This document shows positions 58,873 to 64,000 of a stretch of DNA of 64,000 bases, piece by piece. Position numbers and translations under genes: made by a program. Source of the stretch: Planctomycetaceae bacterium (GTDB lineage: Bacteria > Planctomycetota > Planctomycetia > Pirellulales > Pirellulaceae); the NCBI GenBank assembly GCA_024642205.1, contig JAHEBQ010000030.1:1-64000 (forward strand), given 5' to 3'. The number at the start of each line of letters is the position of its first letter. Positions within the stretch are counted from its first letter, which is position 1. The notes beneath the pieces were generated by a model. It was given only the letters and a program-made list of their open reading frames with translations. It had not been told where the DNA came from and searched no databases.

Positions 58873-59856
58873 CTAGGCGTCGACCGGCTTGGGATTGGTC
58901 GATGAAGCCGTTTGCCCAGTCTCCTTCGGTGGGTAAAGTTTGAGAACCAATGCCTCGAGCTGAGATAGGTTGTCGCAGAAAATCGCTTGTTTGATCTGGC
59001 TGCGAAATTCGGAGTCAATTGCGTGGCCGCCAATAACAAGTGTCGTTTCAACGGGCAGTCCACTGGCGAATTCGTTCAGTGCGAAAACCGCGCGTACTGG
59101 ATCTTCCAAATGCGAAACACTCAACCAAAACAGGGTTGGCCGATGCACATGAGCGGATTTTAGCAAGGACTCCAGAGGAAGGTTGCTACCCAGTGAAGTC
59201 GCTCGCCAGCCAAGTGACACCAGGGTTGCTTCAACGGCTTTCGTTGGCACGTCGTAGTAATCATCTTCAATCGAACCGCCGAGGGCCGTTGGCGCTGACG
59301 CGCGGGGGGATGGCAGCAGTGAACTCAACTGGTGAATCGCTGACAGGCAAGCCTGGCATGCCTGGCGTTCCTGGTAAACTTCAACCTGCCCTTCATGCCA
59401 TTGATCGCCGATTCGCGTCATTGCCGGACTGACGAGTTGATCAAATATTTCGGCGACGTTCCAGCCAGACATAAAAACATAAAACAGCAGTTTTGAACAT
59501 TTCGTCGCGTCCGGCACCAGCAACGCATCATGATACTGGTTCAAAGCATCGGCTGGGTTTTCAATAACAACATCTTCCAGAACGGGGAGTCCAAGAGTTT
59601 CCGGGGCAAATAACTTGAGATTCCTCCGCTTTACGAATGAAATCACTTCGGGCCGGGAAATTCGTCGGTGACCACCTGCCGTCTTGGTCGCGTTGAGGAT
59701 CCCCGCATCGCACCATCGTTTAAGCGAAGATTCGCTTACGCCGATTGATCTGGCGACCTTTCGCGGCGAGTACAGCTCGATTGAATCATCGGAAAAGTGG
59801 ACGTTTTGAACGATTTGTTCTTTTCGAATATCTTGGTAGCTGTCCATTAAATTCAT
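58873..59856 (-). CDS. MerR-type regulator with CarH/LitR-like B12-binding architecture
   Basis: A 327-residue regulator from ATG 59856 (TTG at 59865 and ATG at 59847 are alternatives). Residues about 28-76 are a MerR/excisionase HTH (SPRKVARSIG, SLKRWCDAG, GGHRRISRPE). Residues about 95-180 match the helical B12-binding cap, and about 188-305 match the Rossmann B12-binding fold (VSLGWRATSLGSNLP, VIGGHAID). The W-x9-E signature is kept (Trp143, Glu153), but the following His is Arg154. The lower-axial His of CarH aligns, by hand, to Tyr191. It may therefore not bind cobalamin or not respond as CarH does. Divergent from the lipid operon, whose promoter has an inverted repeat; it is the likely repressor. 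Such proteins are light- or ligand-responsive repressors. Confidence 0.82.
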   Translation of the reverse strand: MNLMDSYQDIRKEQIVQNVHFSDDSIELYSPRKVARSIGVSESSLKRWCDAGILNATKTAGGHRRISRPEVISFVKRRNLKLFAPETLGLPVLEDVVIENPADALNQYHDALLVPDATKCSKLLFYVFMSGWNVAEIFDQLVSPAMTRIGDQWHEGQVEVYQERQACQACLSAIHQLSSLLPSPRASAPTALGGSIEDDYYDVPTKAVEATLVSLGWRATSLGSNLPLESLLKSAHVHRPTLFWLSVSHLEDPVRAVFALNEFASGLPVETTLVIGGHAIDSEFRSQIKQAIFCDNLSQLEALVLKLYPPKETGQTASSTNPKPVDA

Positions 59857-59880
59857 TTCATTCAATAAAAATTTAGACTA

Positions 59881-59925
59881 TTGTGCGTCGTGCTGTTAAA
59901 CCGTTATAACATGTCCGGGTTTAAC
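59881..59925 (+). promoter_or_regulatory. Promoter overlapped by 8-bp inverted repeat, candidate operator
   Basis: TTGTGC (59881-59886), 17-base spacer, TTATAA (59904-59909) form a sigma70-like promoter for the DCC operon, with a leader of about 45 bases. A perfect inverted repeat GTTAAACC (59895-59902) / GGTTTAAC (59918-59925), centre to centre 23 bases, has one arm between the -35 and -10 and the other at the expected start. That placing suits a repressor. The divergent gene is the CarH-like regulator. Confidence 0.6.
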
Positions 59926-59960
59926 AATGAACGAATTGAACGTTTTCAATCATCATCATA

Positions 59961-60422
59961 ATGCATCTTAGCCTCCCGCAACAACCCGTAAAGTCCGCTC
60001 CGGGAACTCGTTTCGAGGTCTTTTTCGACGGCGATTGTCCAATCTGCCGTCGCGAAATCGAAATGATTCGCAGAAAGGACAGGCAAAACCGACTGGTTCT
60101 GACCGATATTTCGGCGGCCGAATTCAATCCATCGGACCGACCATTGGAGGAATTGATGAAGGAAATCCACGGCCGGTTTCCAGACGGATCCTACCTGGTC
60201 GGCGTTCAGGTCTTCCGGGAAATCTACCGGAGGCTGGGATATGGGAAAATCGTCCGGTTCACGGAATTTCCGTTGGTAGGCAAGCTGCTTGAACTGGCTT
60301 ATTTTGCGTTTGCCCGCATCCGGTTTCGTCGGGCGATGGTTCGGTTGCGGAAACGCAAATCTCGACAGGCTCAAAACGGATGCGATAGCACCCATTCAAG
60401 TTGTCATCAAATTTCCGTTTGA
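59961..60422 (+). CDS. DCC-family (DUF393) thiol-disulfide oxidoreductase
   Basis: A 153-residue small redox protein. VFFDGDCPICRRE (about 20-32) is the DCC motif DGxCxxC (Cys26, Cys29). The remainder fits DUF393 (FPDGSYLVGVQVFREIYRRL). The C-terminal 30 residues are basic (RKRKSRQAQ). First gene of a four-gene operon: the next start lies 24 bases later, the following genes overlap. Members are linked to thiol-disulfide exchange; partners unknown. No Shine-Dalgarno before ATG 59961. Confidence 0.88.
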   Translation: MHLSLPQQPVKSAPGTRFEVFFDGDCPICRREIEMIRRKDRQNRLVLTDISAAEFNPSDRPLEELMKEIHGRFPDGSYLVGVQVFREIYRRLGYGKIVRFTEFPLVGKLLELAYFAFARIRFRRAMVRLRKRKSRQAQNGCDSTHSSCHQISV

Positions 60423-60446
60423 GTTATTGAAAGTTCCAGGGAAATC

Positions 60447-61709
60447 ATGCGAATCGCAATTATTGGCGGGGGAATCTCAGGTTTGGTCACCGGATACCGT
60501 CTATACCGAGATCACGAACTTACCCTGTTCGAAGCCAATGATTACGTTGGTGGGCACACGAACACAGTTGATGTGGAAACGGAAGAAGGTCACTTTGCCG
60601 TGGATACGGGATTCATTGTCTTCAACGACCGAACTTACCCAAATTTTATTGAGCTCCTGGAAGAGCTCGAGGTGGCATCGCAACCAACCTCCATGAACTT
60701 CAGCGTCAGTTGCGCTCGCACCGGATTGGAATATCGGGGTGCTGATCTGGGTGGTTTGTTTGCACAGCGGTCAAACTTGGTCAACCCGAAGTTTCTTCGA
60801 CTGCTGTGGGATTTGCTCAGATTCAACCGACTCGGTCAGACGGTTTTGGAAACCGATCAGGAAAACGAGACGGTGGGGGAGTTTTTTGAGCGACATCAAT
60901 TTTCGACACCCTTCATCAATCAGTATTTCCTTCCCATGGGGGCGGCAATCTGGTCCGCGTCGTTTGAAAAATTTCGAGAGTTTCCGATTCGTTTCATCAC
61001 GGAATTTTATCAAAACCACGGATTGTTGGGGATTACCAACCGGCCCCAATGGCGGGTCATCCAAGGTGGATCACGCGAGTACATCGAGCCGTTGACCCGG
61101 GACTGGTCGCAGCGAATTCGACTTGGTTCACCCATCGAATCCGTCAAACGCGAGGCAGGGTCGGTCTCGGTCAAGCCAGCTGGCGAGCCGAGTGAGTGTT
61201 TCGACCATGTCGTGTTCGCCTGCCACAGTGATCAAGCGTTGGCAATGCTGGGAGAAGACGCAACGGAAATTGAACGGGAAGTACTCGGCGCCTTTCCCTA
61301 TCAATCGAATCTGGCGGTTTTGCATACCCAGGATTCGGTGCTGCCGAAAAATCGACGCGCTTGGGCCTGCTGGAACTATTTCAATCCGGAAACGGAAACA
61401 GACCGGGCAACGGTCACTTACAACATGAATCTGTTGCAGTCACTCAATTCAAAGATCACTTTCTGTGTAACACTCAACGACACCGACCGGATTAAGCCAG
61501 AAAATATTATCAAAACATTCACCTACTCTCACCCAACGTTTGATGTTCGGCGTAAAATCATGCAGTCGCGACATCAAGAGTTGATTAACCGGAATGCCAC
61601 CTCGTTTTGCGGAGCCTACTGGGGAAATGGCTTCCACGAAGACGGAGTAAACAGTGCGATCGCAGTAACTCAGGCCCTGGCGAATAAGGATGTGGAGGTT
61701 GCATGTTAA
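60447..61709 (+). CDS. FAD-dependent amine-oxidase-like oxidoreductase
   Basis: A 420-residue flavoprotein. IAIIGGGISGLVTGYRLYRDHELTLFEAN is the FAD-binding Rossmann motif; GGHTNTV and GFIVFNDRTYPNFIELLEEL follow. This is the FAD oxidoreductase that commonly sits next to DUF1365 and CFA-type methyltransferases; in furan fatty acid synthesis the homologous protein (UfaD) is a desaturase. It starts with AGGGAAA at six bases and overlaps DUF1365 by seven bases, so it is co-translated. Function here probably modifies unsaturated acyl chains; the substrate is inferred. Confidence 0.88.
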   Translation: MRIAIIGGGISGLVTGYRLYRDHELTLFEANDYVGGHTNTVDVETEEGHFAVDTGFIVFNDRTYPNFIELLEELEVASQPTSMNFSVSCARTGLEYRGADLGGLFAQRSNLVNPKFLRLLWDLLRFNRLGQTVLETDQENETVGEFFERHQFSTPFINQYFLPMGAAIWSASFEKFREFPIRFITEFYQNHGLLGITNRPQWRVIQGGSREYIEPLTRDWSQRIRLGSPIESVKREAGSVSVKPAGEPSECFDHVVFACHSDQALAMLGEDATEIEREVLGAFPYQSNLAVLHTQDSVLPKNRRAWACWNYFNPETETDRATVTYNMNLLQSLNSKITFCVTLNDTDRIKPENIIKTFTYSHPTFDVRRKIMQSRHQELINRNATSFCGAYWGNGFHEDGVNSAIAVTQALANKDVEVAC

Positions 61710-62611
61710 ACAGCTGTATCTACGAAGGCTTGATTCGTCACCGACGAAATGCACCGCACGTCCACCAGTTCGACTTTCGATCGTTTCTGTTCATGCTGGA
61801 TCTGGATGAACTCGATTCGGTGTTTGCCGGTCGTTGGCTCTGGTCGACGTCCCGCCTGGCATTTGCACGGTTCAAGGAGTCGGCCCACCTGGTCGGATTC
61901 AAGGGCGCCGGAAGTCTCAGGGCACGTGTTCGTGAGGTGCTTGTGCACCACGGAATTCCAGCTCCGGATGGCCCGATTCGCCTTTTGACGCAGCTTCGAT
62001 ATCTGGGTTTTGCCATGAACCCGGTCAGCTTTTACTATTGTTTTGATCCGTCCGGGATCAAAATCACAGCGATTGTTGCCGAAGTCAACAACACACCCTG
62101 GGGTGAACAGCATGTTTACGTCATTCCCGCGACGGATCGGAGCCTTCATTCGTCCGCGCGAGTGACCAGTGTTTCCAGCAAGCGGATTGAGAAGACATTT
62201 CATGTCTCGCCGTTCATGTCGATGGATCTCACTTACCGAATGGCATTTTCCTTTCCCGACGAAATTCTCGGCGTGAAAATCGAAAACCACCTGGACGAAC
62301 CCGTTGGCGGAATCAGGAAAATTCTTGATGTGTCGATGCAGATGAAACGCAAGCCGTTGACGGCGAGAAATCTGAATCTGATGCTGTTAAAGTATCCTTT
62401 ACTGAGTTTCAGGGTTGTTGCCGGAATCTACTGGCAGGCGTTTCGATTGTATTTAAAAAAGACCCCTTTTTACTCGCATCCGGCTGGTCCTGTCACGGAA
62501 CCAATGGTTGAGCCTGAGGAAGTTGAGGCGATCCAATCAGAACCGTTTGACAGTCCAGATCTGCCGAAAAAATCTGAATCTGAATCTGAATCTTTTTTGG
62601 TGAGTCGATGA
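61703..62611 (+). CDS. DUF1365 protein
   Basis: A 302-residue protein with TGGAGG just upstream. DUF1365 landmarks: SCIYEGLIRHRRNAP-like start, HxFDFRSFLFMLDLDEL, RLLTQLRYLGFAMNPVSFYYCFD, VAEVNNTPWGEQHVYV and KTFHVSPFMSMD. The C-terminus (about 265-302) is Glu/Ser-rich and ends with a short tandem SESESE. DUF1365 has no established activity; it is nearly always next to the FAD oxidoreductase and CFA-type methyltransferase. Its stop overlaps the next start by four bases (ATGA). Confidence 0.9.
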   Translation: MLNSCIYEGLIRHRRNAPHVHQFDFRSFLFMLDLDELDSVFAGRWLWSTSRLAFARFKESAHLVGFKGAGSLRARVREVLVHHGIPAPDGPIRLLTQLRYLGFAMNPVSFYYCFDPSGIKITAIVAEVNNTPWGEQHVYVIPATDRSLHSSARVTSVSSKRIEKTFHVSPFMSMDLTYRMAFSFPDEILGVKIENHLDEPVGGIRKILDVSMQMKRKPLTARNLNLMLLKYPLLSFRVVAGIYWQAFRLYLKKTPFYSHPAGPVTEPMVEPEEVEAIQSEPFDSPDLPKKSESESESFLVSR

Positions 62612-64000
62612 ATTGTTTTCTAAAATCTGGAGCGCAGACCCGGTTGCCGGGTCGTTTTGAGACCGAGACGTGTGAGGGCATTGTTCGGTCCGAGCTGCCA
62701 TTGTCAGAGGACTTCAAAAACGGGAGCGGAAATCCTGTCTCAAGGATGTCTGCGTTTGCTCGGCAACGAATTCTCAGCCGGTTTCAAAGCCTGGATGGAG
62801 GACGGTTGCGTGTCATCGATTCCGCCGGAGTAACTCACTCGACCACTCAACCTGACGACGACGAATTGAGCGCAACGGTTTTGGTAGGCAGCGACGCATT
62901 TTATCAGCGGGTTCTGCTGGGAGGCACAATTGGATCGGCCGAATCCTATGCCGACGGACAATGGGTAACCGATGACTTAACGGCGTTGATTCGGATCATG
63001 ATTCGCAATCTTGACCGCTTTTCTTCGTTGGAAAAATCATGGGCCTGGGTCAAGAACAGCTGGTATTTTTTTCAGCACCGGATGCGAAAAAACACGATCA
63101 CTGGAAGCAGGAAAAATATCCATGAGCATTACGACTTGGGGAACGATTTCTATCAGCTTTTTCTTGATCCAACGATGAACTATTCTTCGGGCATTTTCCA
63201 GTCTGCCGAACCGGACGCGGATGATTCAACGAAAATGATCGACGCTTCGATGCGAAAAATGGACCAGGTTTGCCGCAAGCTTCAGCTCAATTCACTGGAC
63301 CATGTACTGGAAATCGGGACCGGGTGGGGTGGACTTGCCATTCATATGGCCAAACATTTCGGTTGTCGCGTTACGACGACGACAATCTCGGAAGAGCAAT
63401 ATCGGTTTGCGACTGATCGAGTCGAGCGCGAGGGCTTGGCCGGCCGGGTTACGGTTTTGTTACAGGACTATCGCAAGCTGCAAGGTCGATTCGATAAAAT
63501 TGTCTCAATTGAAATGATCGAGGCCGTTGGAAGCCAGTTTTACGACGAGTATTTTTCCCGCTGTTCCAAACTGCTTCGCGATGATGGCGTCATGTTGCTC
63601 CAGTCAATCACCATTGGAGAGCAGAACTTTGATTACCACGTTCGGCATGTTGACTTCATTCGAAAGTACATTTTTCCTGGCGGTTGCCTGCCCTCGGTCA
63701 CGGCATTGGCATCTTCTGTTGGGCGCGTAACCACAATGCGAATGCTCTATCATGAAGACATCACGCCACACTACGTAAAAACGCTGGCCTATTGGCGGTC
63801 CCGATTCATGAGCGAATTGGATCGGGTTCGGTCGCTTGGCTACGACGAACGGTTTATCCGTTTCTGGCATTTCTACCTTTGCTATTGTGAAGCGGCATTT
63901 GCGGAGCGTCGCGTGCACAACATTCATTTGATGTTCGCAAAGCCAAAATGCAAAATTGACCCGGCCGTCGATTTTTCCGATGCGGAAACCGGCATTCGCA
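62608..64000 (+). CDS. Cyclopropane-fatty-acid-synthase-type methyltransferase (right end cut by window)
   Basis: At least 464 residues, running past base 64000. SAM-binding motif I is VLEIGTGWGGLAIHMA (233-248), preceded by IHEHYDLGNDFYQLFLDPTMNYSSG and followed by SIEMIEAVG and FIRKYIFPGGCLPS. These are the CFA family residues that bind SAM and the lipid. The start is the ATG overlapping the DUF1365 stop. N-terminal about 100 residues are extra or divergent relative to shorter CFA proteins. It transfers a methyl (methylene) group from SAM to unsaturated acyl chains of membrane lipids; it could equally be a UfaM-type methyltransferase. Fourth gene of the operon; more may follow beyond the edge. 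Confidence 0.9.
   Translation, partial: MNCFLKSGAQTRLPGRFETETCEGIVRSELPLSEDFKNGSGNPVSRMSAFARQRILSRFQSLDGGRLRVIDSAGVTHSTTQPDDDELSATVLVGSDAFYQRVLLGGTIGSAESYADGQWVTDDLTALIRIMIRNLDRFSSLEKSWAWVKNSWYFFQHRMRKNTITGSRKNIHEHYDLGNDFYQLFLDPTMNYSSGIFQSAEPDADDSTKMIDASMRKMDQVCRKLQLNSLDHVLEIGTGWGGLAIHMAKHFGCRVTTTTISEEQYRFATDRVEREGLAGRVTVLLQDYRKLQGRFDKIVSIEMIEAVGSQFYDEYFSRCSKLLRDDGVMLLQSITIGEQNFDYHVRHVDFIRKYIFPGGCLPSVTALASSVGRVTTMRMLYHEDITPHYVKTLAYWRSRFMSELDRVRSLGYDERFIRFWHFYLCYCEAAFAERRVHNIHLMFAKPKCKIDPAVDFSDAETGIR

Follow-up and report, generated by a model that had tools for sequence, protein, structure and literature searches.

A CarH-fold regulator without the cobalt-ligating histidine, and its predicted BldC-like operator, at a planctomycete lipid-modification operon

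CtMerR of Chloracidobacterium thermophilum (8JBS/8JBT) is described as an adenosylcobalamin (AdoCbl) green-light photoreceptor, for which Gly153, Trp156, Glu166, His167, Gly201, His204 and Gly226 are named and in which His204 is the cobalt ligand (PMC11796333); the classic cobalamin motif is given as D/E-x-H-x2-G/P-x41-S-x-T/V-x22-27-GG (PMC9304148). Class II LitR proteins are described as B12-independent and as involved in the induction by light of genes that include ufaM (PMC9758184), and UfaM, UfaD and UfaO are reported to be sufficient for furan fatty acid synthesis in Rhodobacter sphaeroides (PMC7380195). BldC is reported to bind head-to-tail on 9-bp direct repeats of the form AATTXXXX(C) (PMC5859096). 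Here we analyzed a stretch of 64,000 nucleotides from a Planctomycetaceae bacterium (contig JAHEBQ010000030.1, positions 1 to 64,000; hereafter the window), in which a gene for a regulator with CarH/LitR domain order lies divergent from an operon for a DCC1-like protein, an FAD protein, a DUF1365 protein and a CFA-type methyltransferase. We consider it fairly probable that the regulator, most likely a repressor, acts at two BldC-like repeats, O1 and O2, to control its own gene and the lipid operon, and that it does so without AdoCbl photochemistry.

Within its 330-aa frame, the regulator carries Gly153, Trp156, Glu166, Arg167, Asp201, Tyr204 and Gly226 at the positions matching the CtMerR residues listed above, and also Pro230; the residue numbers of the two proteins coincide by chance. 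An earlier note on this DNA had claimed a retained Trp-x9-Glu with Arg in place of the following His, and a Tyr in place of the lower axial His (its W143, E153, R154 and Y191 are W156, E166, R167 and Y204 of the 330-aa frame). This was confirmed by the alignment, where these four residues face W156, E166, H167 and H204 of CtMerR and the CarH ligand positions are occupied by R167 and Y204 rather than by His. The regulator keeps the classic spacing, D202-x-Y204-x2-P207-x41-S249-x-S251-x27-G279-G280. Of the two signatures of CarH/LitR class I, D/ExHx2G/P has lost its lower axial His (Y204), and Wx9EH retains Wx9E and has Arg167 in place of its His. These defining ligands, as read from the sequence, place the regulator outside CarH class I. 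A tryptophan, W247, stands two residues ahead of the conserved Ser (S249). With both the cobalt-ligating His and the His of EH lost, and Trp247 present, AdoCbl photolysis is not expected. CarA of Myxococcus, a B12-independent CarH paralogue and in this respect like the proposed state of the regulator, is described as showing the reverse pattern, keeping the B12 motif and EH and lacking the Trp of Wx9EH (PMC9304148).

The regulator combines a BldC-type winged helix-turn-helix (HTH; residues ~31-81), a four-helix B12-binding_2-like domain (108-180) and a Rossmann B12-binding-like domain (~193-310). Pfam matched B12-binding_2 (35.4 bits) and HTH_17 (31.3 bits), while PF02310 B12-binding (15.6, cut-off 32.1) and MerR_1 (18.4, cut-off 21.6) stayed below their cut-offs; the NCBIfam CarH equivalog scored 48.1 bits against a cut-off of 400, which none of 294 planctomycete genomes passed, so that this criterion separates little here. 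By sequence, the nearest solved proteins were CtMerR (8jbs, E 1.8e-25) and then Thermus CarH (5c8d, 3.8e-7). An AlphaFold model built on a 61-sequence alignment had a mean pLDDT (predicted local distance difference test) of 90.5, with the Rossmann domain confidently predicted. VIA-align of this model placed CtMerR first (8jbt, Z 26.8, root-mean-square deviation (rmsd) 2.1, 219 residues) and the photocobilins second (8j2x, Z 24.7, rmsd 2.2, 207 residues), and also matched the AppA SCHIC domain (4heh, Z 20.2, rmsd 2.7, 204 residues) and CarH (5c8d_G, Z 20.0, rmsd 2.8, 200 residues). The overlay on CarH that the earlier note had proposed as a check therefore found the helix-bundle and Rossmann sensor fold common to both proteins. 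The note's description of a MerR-type protein with the CarH/LitR domain order stood as to domain order and not as to type, the DNA-binding domain being nearer to BldC than to classical MerR. The predicted Rossmann domain also sets the regulator apart from class II LitR, in which, by description, the four-helix B12-binding_2 domain alone is retained (PMC9758184). In one relative (L056:5463-7826), the regulator domains form part of an open frame of 787 aa, which may be a fusion or else a long frame that is spurious.

To compare the pocket across relatives, we used 294 genomes of the phylum (68 with a match at 1e-10) and the GTDB contig collection (the best 80 of 379 relatives); among named genomes, the best matches were Mariniblastus and other planctomycete metagenome-assembled genomes. 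Residues were counted over 121 family rows, 2 of the 123 family frames, at least 420 aa long, having been left out. They were compared with 31 CarH-type rows (30 loci from the CarH-model search and one from the window's own genome), a set that leans to canonical CarH. Position 204, H in 31/31 CarH-type rows, was Y in 107 family rows, F in 8, S in 2 and D, T, H or G in 1 each; position 167, again H in 31/31 CarH-type rows, was R in 98, H in 20 and S in 3. All 31 CarH-type rows also had W at 156 and E at 166, the family having W (113), R (6), I (1) or F (1) at 156. Position 247 was W in 118 family rows (F in 2, Y in 1) and never W in the CarH-type rows (A 13, G 9, L 3, Y 2, and S, F, V and C 1 each). 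Non-redundant sets (98 family and 30 CarH-type rows) gave the same pattern, and G153, W156, E166, G226, P230 and GG were nearly invariant in the family. Because it is nearly fixed across the clade, the ligand substitution is beyond chance.

In a tree with two references from outside the phylum, the regulator family was monophyletic (0.984) and CtMerR was its sister (0.991). Within the family, 101 rows form a subclade (0.893) in which residue 167 is R or S, and the remaining 20 rows have His. The nearest orthologues (L075-L080, six sisters of the window's lineage), with the same operon, carry R156 and F204, and S167 is also found among sisters in this lineage. As read from these rows, ligand loss is a property of the whole planctomycete clade and not of the window regulator alone. 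The cobalt ligand was probably lost early in the clade, whose pocket would have been rebuilt rather than left to drift, and the window's lineage may now be eroding or changing again. Tyr204 was also considered as a generally conserved metal ligand and was rejected, the sister clade having Phe. At two loci (L051 and L068) the regulator occurs in pairs, tandem or divergent; the second copy at L051 retains few of the pocket residues, with R, I, D and R at 153, 156, 166 and 167, and D at 204. A plasmid search for relatives returned 4 weak records. On one plasmid, of Rhizobium (L155, NZ_CP062234.1, not in the tree), a protein of similar architecture, absent from the record's gene table, has intact EH and His and adjoins a fasciclin gene; it would seem to be a relative of the B12 type that has this neighbour in common with the family, and the highest operator-like score there, 7.5, was not significant.

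Searched alone, the HTH matched at E <=0.01 only 8jbs and 6ama/6amk, the last two of which we take to be BldC entries. The residues named for BldC, R30, W31, G44, H46, R47 and R48 (PMC5859096), align with R50, W51, G64, H66, R67 and R68 of the regulator. R50, W51, H66 and R67 are present in 123/123 rows and R68 in 117/123, and G64 is invariant in the 35- and 61-row alignments. The family's upstream DNA holds one strong motif, a direct repeat with a 9-bp period (consensus ttAAAAtCGTTCAAAtCGTTCA; repeat unit AAWWCGTTC), found in upstream sets of 119 and 118 sequences by a search that was seeded with the motif itself. In a 5-fold held-out test on 95 of the 98 non-redundant upstreams, 47/95 scored at least 20 bits, against 0/1900 shuffles; at the same threshold, none of 30 CarH-type loci had an operator-like site. 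The two predicted sites of the window, O1 and O2 (Table 1), scored 32.0 and 28.8 bits, and the next best in the 64 kb scored 13.5; the exact core CGTTCAAWWCGTTCA occurred once in the 6.8 Mb scanned, at O1. The predicted O1 has the 9-bp form AATTXXXX(C) in AATTCGTTC and AAAACGTTC. BldC and the regulator are thus alike in their winged HTH and in 9-bp direct repeats with an AT-rich part and C-G, and they differ in that BldC has 68 residues and no sensor domain, and in that the repeats here end in CGTTC. The operator reported for class II LitR is another again, TGTACA-N12-TGTACA (PMC9758184). O1 and O2 are 130 bp apart. Among the 119 upstreams, 40 had two sites and 35 had one at 16 bits or more, and the common spacings of two sites were 57-60 bp (10 loci) and 129-132 bp (7 loci, the window included); an oligomer touching both O1 and O2 is conceivable.

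Table 1. Genes and predicted operators of the locus (positions in the window)
Feature	Position	Strand	Remarks
Regulator gene	58873-59865	-	330-aa frame, TTG start; divergent from DCC gene
Predicted operator O2	59799-59816	-	AAATCGTTC (59808-59816) and AAAACGTCC (59799-59807), inside 5' end of regulator frame
Predicted operator O1	59929-59946	-	9-bp direct repeats AAAACGTTC (59938-59946) and AATTCGTTC (59929-59937), just upstream of DCC gene
DCC1-like thiol-disulfide oxidoreductase	59961-60422	+	PF04134
FAD/NAD(P)-binding amine-oxidase-like protein, candidate UfaD (desaturase)	60447-61709	+	family match
DUF1365 protein, candidate UfaO (oxygenase)	61703-62611	+	PF07103, 257.8 bits
CFA-type S-adenosylmethionine methyltransferase, candidate UfaM	62608-64050	+	family match; last 50 bases beyond window

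The gene content, divergent layout and overlapping or nearly overlapping junctions were as first described, coordinates and Pfam matches agreeing: the DCC and FAD genes are separated by 24 bp, the FAD and DUF1365 genes overlap by 7 bp and the DUF1365 and CFA genes by 4 bp, and a convergent gene follows the CFA-type gene on the opposite strand. In the regulator frame, ATG, GTG or TTG starts before the HTH occur only at residues 1, 4 and 7. A sigma-70 promoter scan of 59700-60050 gave one site on the - strand against 0.4 expected, and the result was not used. By family, the FAD (amine-oxidase-like), DUF1365 and CFA-type (CMAS) proteins are of the UfaD, UfaO and UfaM types, in agreement with the link to furan fatty acid synthesis drawn in the earlier note; this assignment is at family level. 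The putative pathway of the window thus shares three protein types with that of R. sphaeroides, here in one operon, and differs in its regulator and in the added DCC gene. The bicarbonate ligands of E. coli CFA are reported as E239, H266 and Y317 (PMC11387697). The window protein keeps E239 and Y317 and has Gln for H266, as do 37/37 CFA homologues with the window included (entered at >330 bits and 380 aa), and in this it departs from the E. coli-type cyclopropane synthase. This substitution may fit a UfaM-type methylase better than a cyclopropane synthase.

The operon accompanies the regulator in many relatives. Labelling neighbours by similarity to one Pfam-scanned representative per family, at loci that differ in length and some of which end at contig ends, we found the FAD, DUF1365 and CFA genes together within 5.5 kb of the regulator in 39/120 loci. 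Other neighbours within this distance were sigma-factor (SIG, 31), fasciclin (19), DUF2867-SDR (14), SOUL (12) and UvdE (4) genes, and a DUF1295 gene also stands with the lipid genes in many relatives. Sites of at least 20 bits lay at or near the starts of SIG genes (L041, L089 and L150) and of fasciclin genes (L065, L113, L139 and L141), some just inside the longest frame. At other loci (L035-L037, L042, L043, L084, L112, L125 and others; the Pfam-scanned copy is that of L042), a sigma-70 gene with regions 2 and 4 (~320 aa) either separates the regulator from the lipid operon or is divergent from the former. The pairing recalls the LitR-LitS pair of Streptomyces. Neither the window nor L075-L080 showed a sigma-70 gene next to the regulator. 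The earlier note had also pointed to the ChrR-RpoE regulon of R. sphaeroides, a link that found no support here, as the 7 window proteins scanned around the regulator included no ChrR-RpoE pair.

Operator-like sites were also sought at hand-chosen UFA (DUF1365) regions. A site of at least 26.8 bits was present in 6/20 regions from regulator-bearing genomes and in 0/20 of a comparison set, a split made by a threshold (the lowest of the six scored 26.8 and the next 16.0, with a highest shuffle of 19.9 and a comparison-set maximum of 11.5 bits). A Mann-Whitney test on the same regions gave p 0.10. The two batches differ in phylogeny, and the comparison genomes are without a proper family member; the weak match in one of them (G085, 5.9e-12, without HTH) is an intact B12-domain-type protein. 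Three of the 20 regions from regulator-bearing genomes hold a regulator gene, two with a site (L242 and L251) and one without (L252), and four of the six site-bearing operons are on another contig than the regulator. In these four, the site lies 4 bp before the FAD gene (L247), 26 bp before a DUF1295 gene heading the cluster (L253, where both contigs are short, so that the regulator may be a neighbour), at the 5' end of a fasciclin frame preceding the FAD gene (L238), or 1.1 kb before the FAD gene (L245). Across genomes, taking 53 'strict' regulator genomes and 38 CarH genomes chosen by E-value and coverage, regulator and DUF1365 co-occurred (38/53 versus 44/241 genomes, odds ratio 11.3, p 1e-13, a statistic that ignores phylogeny). 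Mutual exclusion of regulator and CarH-type genomes was not significant (4/53 versus 34/241, odds ratio 0.5, p 0.26). A scan of the window's own genome with up to 2 mismatches gave 116 places versus 34 in a reversed control; of the 30 that were scored, none besides O1 and O2 exceeded 14.2 bits, and no further targets are claimed. The proposal that the regulator controls the divergent acyl-modification operon is thus supported by two predicted operators at the divergent starts and by the same site at some UFA operons elsewhere.

From residues, predicted fold, repeat motif and gene neighbourhood, we infer the following mechanism. The regulator would bind head-to-tail on the two 9-bp direct repeats at each of O1 and O2 and, most likely as a repressor, would control its own gene and the DCC-FAD-DUF1365-CFA operon, which may make methylated or furan membrane fatty acids upon photo-oxidative or related stress. 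Its sensor has the predicted CarH fold, and the cobalamin signature is largely retained there (GxxW, E, D-x-(H to Y)-x2-P, S, GG); it has lost the cobalt-ligating His (to Tyr, or to Phe in the sisters) and the His of EH (to Arg) and carries the Trp before Ser, and it may be switched by another ligand or partner instead of AdoCbl. Several points weigh against this reading. The base-contacting Lys26 of BldC (PMC5859096) corresponds to Ser46, 52/120 regulator loci have no site of at least 20 bits near the start, and 14/20 UFA regions in regulator-bearing genomes lack one. Since CarH-type genomes also co-occur with DUF1365 (19/38 versus 63/256, odds ratio 3.1, p 0.002, again ignoring phylogeny), the DUF1365 association is not unique to the regulator family. 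The pocket signature is strongly conserved over the clade, as though some ligand binds there, and W247 would lie in the nucleotide-tail tunnel by motif register alone, an uncertainty that we count on the same side. Finally, HaAI-2E, with Arg at the ligand position, is reported to have still bound hydroxocobalamin (PMC11796333), so cobalamin binding by the regulator is possible.

The regulator could, on this last ground, still be a cobalamin photoreceptor with a base-on state or a water or Tyr lower ligand, in which light drives DNA release. Its fold and G153-W156, E166, G226, P230, S249 and GG279-280 are retained with the classic spacing, and the recurring neighbours in relatives look photo-protective (UvdE, SOUL, fasciclin and DUF2867). 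We nevertheless regard this as unlikely: the lower ligand His is gone in 120/121 rows, the nearest orthologues have a Phe that is unable to ligate, at position 247 W takes the place of the A or G found in most CarH-type rows, and HaAI-2E is reported to have bound neither AdoCbl nor methylcobalamin (PMC11796333).

Of comparably low probability is that the regulator is a DNA-binding subunit and that a partner does the sensing, either a LOV protein as in class II LitR or a separate intact B12-domain protein. In the Pseudomonas protein PmlR2, a blue-light-activated LOV protein is described as inhibiting DNA binding (PMC9758184), and the genome of the window encodes, on contig C85, both a PAS/LOV-type kinase (GKNCRFLQ) and an intact B12-domain protein beside a photolyase-related gene. 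The latter kind of protein, however, was found in 43/294 genomes and, at the same threshold, in 4/17 regulator-bearing genomes of the class (missing, for example, from G048, G069 and G181), and as an obligate partner in a split system it was rejected. An exact NCRFLQ-coding pattern, which misses variants, occurred in 23/59 genomes of the class; four genomes with the regulator (G216, G227, G238 and G257) had no exact match, and no photoreceptor gene was seen beside the regulator within the window. The C85 region (L281, G000:C85:8000-27000) is a second light-response island in the same genome, with operator scores of at most 11.3 bits. It encodes a protein resembling the NAD(P)-binding/DUF2867 type, a CheB/CheR-PAS hybrid kinase that bears the LOV-type GKNCRFLQ, and, adjoining the photolyase-related (DPRP) gene, a protein that lacks an HTH and whose CarH-type B12 domain is intact in all its His.

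It is likewise improbable, if conceivable, that the pocket holds a tail-less tetrapyrrole (heme, protoporphyrin or bilin) or another hydrophobic ligand and senses porphyrin, redox or lipid state. The model matches the AppA SCHIC domain, presumably a heme-binding relative, as given above, SOUL heme-binding-like genes stand within 5.5 kb at 12/120 loci, and Tyr is a known heme ligand; against this, the sister clade, whose operon is the same, has Phe instead of Tyr. That the regulator is a degenerate, signal-free protein retained only as a structural DNA-binding repressor would fit the erosion in the window's own lineage (R156, F204 and S167 in sisters), but is very unlikely given pocket positions that are nearly invariant over the clade.

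Returning to a repressor without AdoCbl photochemistry, its closest counterparts can be told apart. CtMerR has a similar HTH, the same sensor fold and W156, E166 and G226, and is unlike the regulator in H167 and H204, where the latter has R167, Y204 and W247. CarH/LitR class I (Thermus 5C8D) shares domain order and sensor fold and has another HTH. The class II LitR proteins of Pseudomonas (PplR and PmlR2) are B12-independent by description, with a locus of FAD oxidoreductase and ufaM that is light-induced in their case (PMC9758184). By analogy with these systems, the regulator would act on a photo-oxidative lipid operon in the manner of the LitR/CarH family, and because B12-free LitR relatives linked to ufaM have already been described, it is a variant within a known type. 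What is likely new here is the operator of BldC-like 9-bp direct repeats. Among the open-licence papers searched, we found none on planctomycete CarH and cobalamin, on CarH with furan fatty acid and light, or on a planctomycete CGTTCA direct repeat.

For the family as a whole, we tentatively propose, at somewhat less than even chances, that a CarH-fold clade across Planctomycetota has been repurposed from cobalamin to another, still selected ligand or partner, with Tyr or Phe for His at the cobalt site, a Trp in the adjacent strand and ER for EH, and that it may rule a photo-oxidative lipid regulon (furan fatty acids, fasciclin and sigma factor) through BldC-style 9-bp repeats. The clade offers a natural series that leads from a B12 photoreceptor to its B12-less kin, and as the operator is predicted, the regulon small and the lipid output measurable, the replacement of cobalamin in the CarH fold becomes directly testable.

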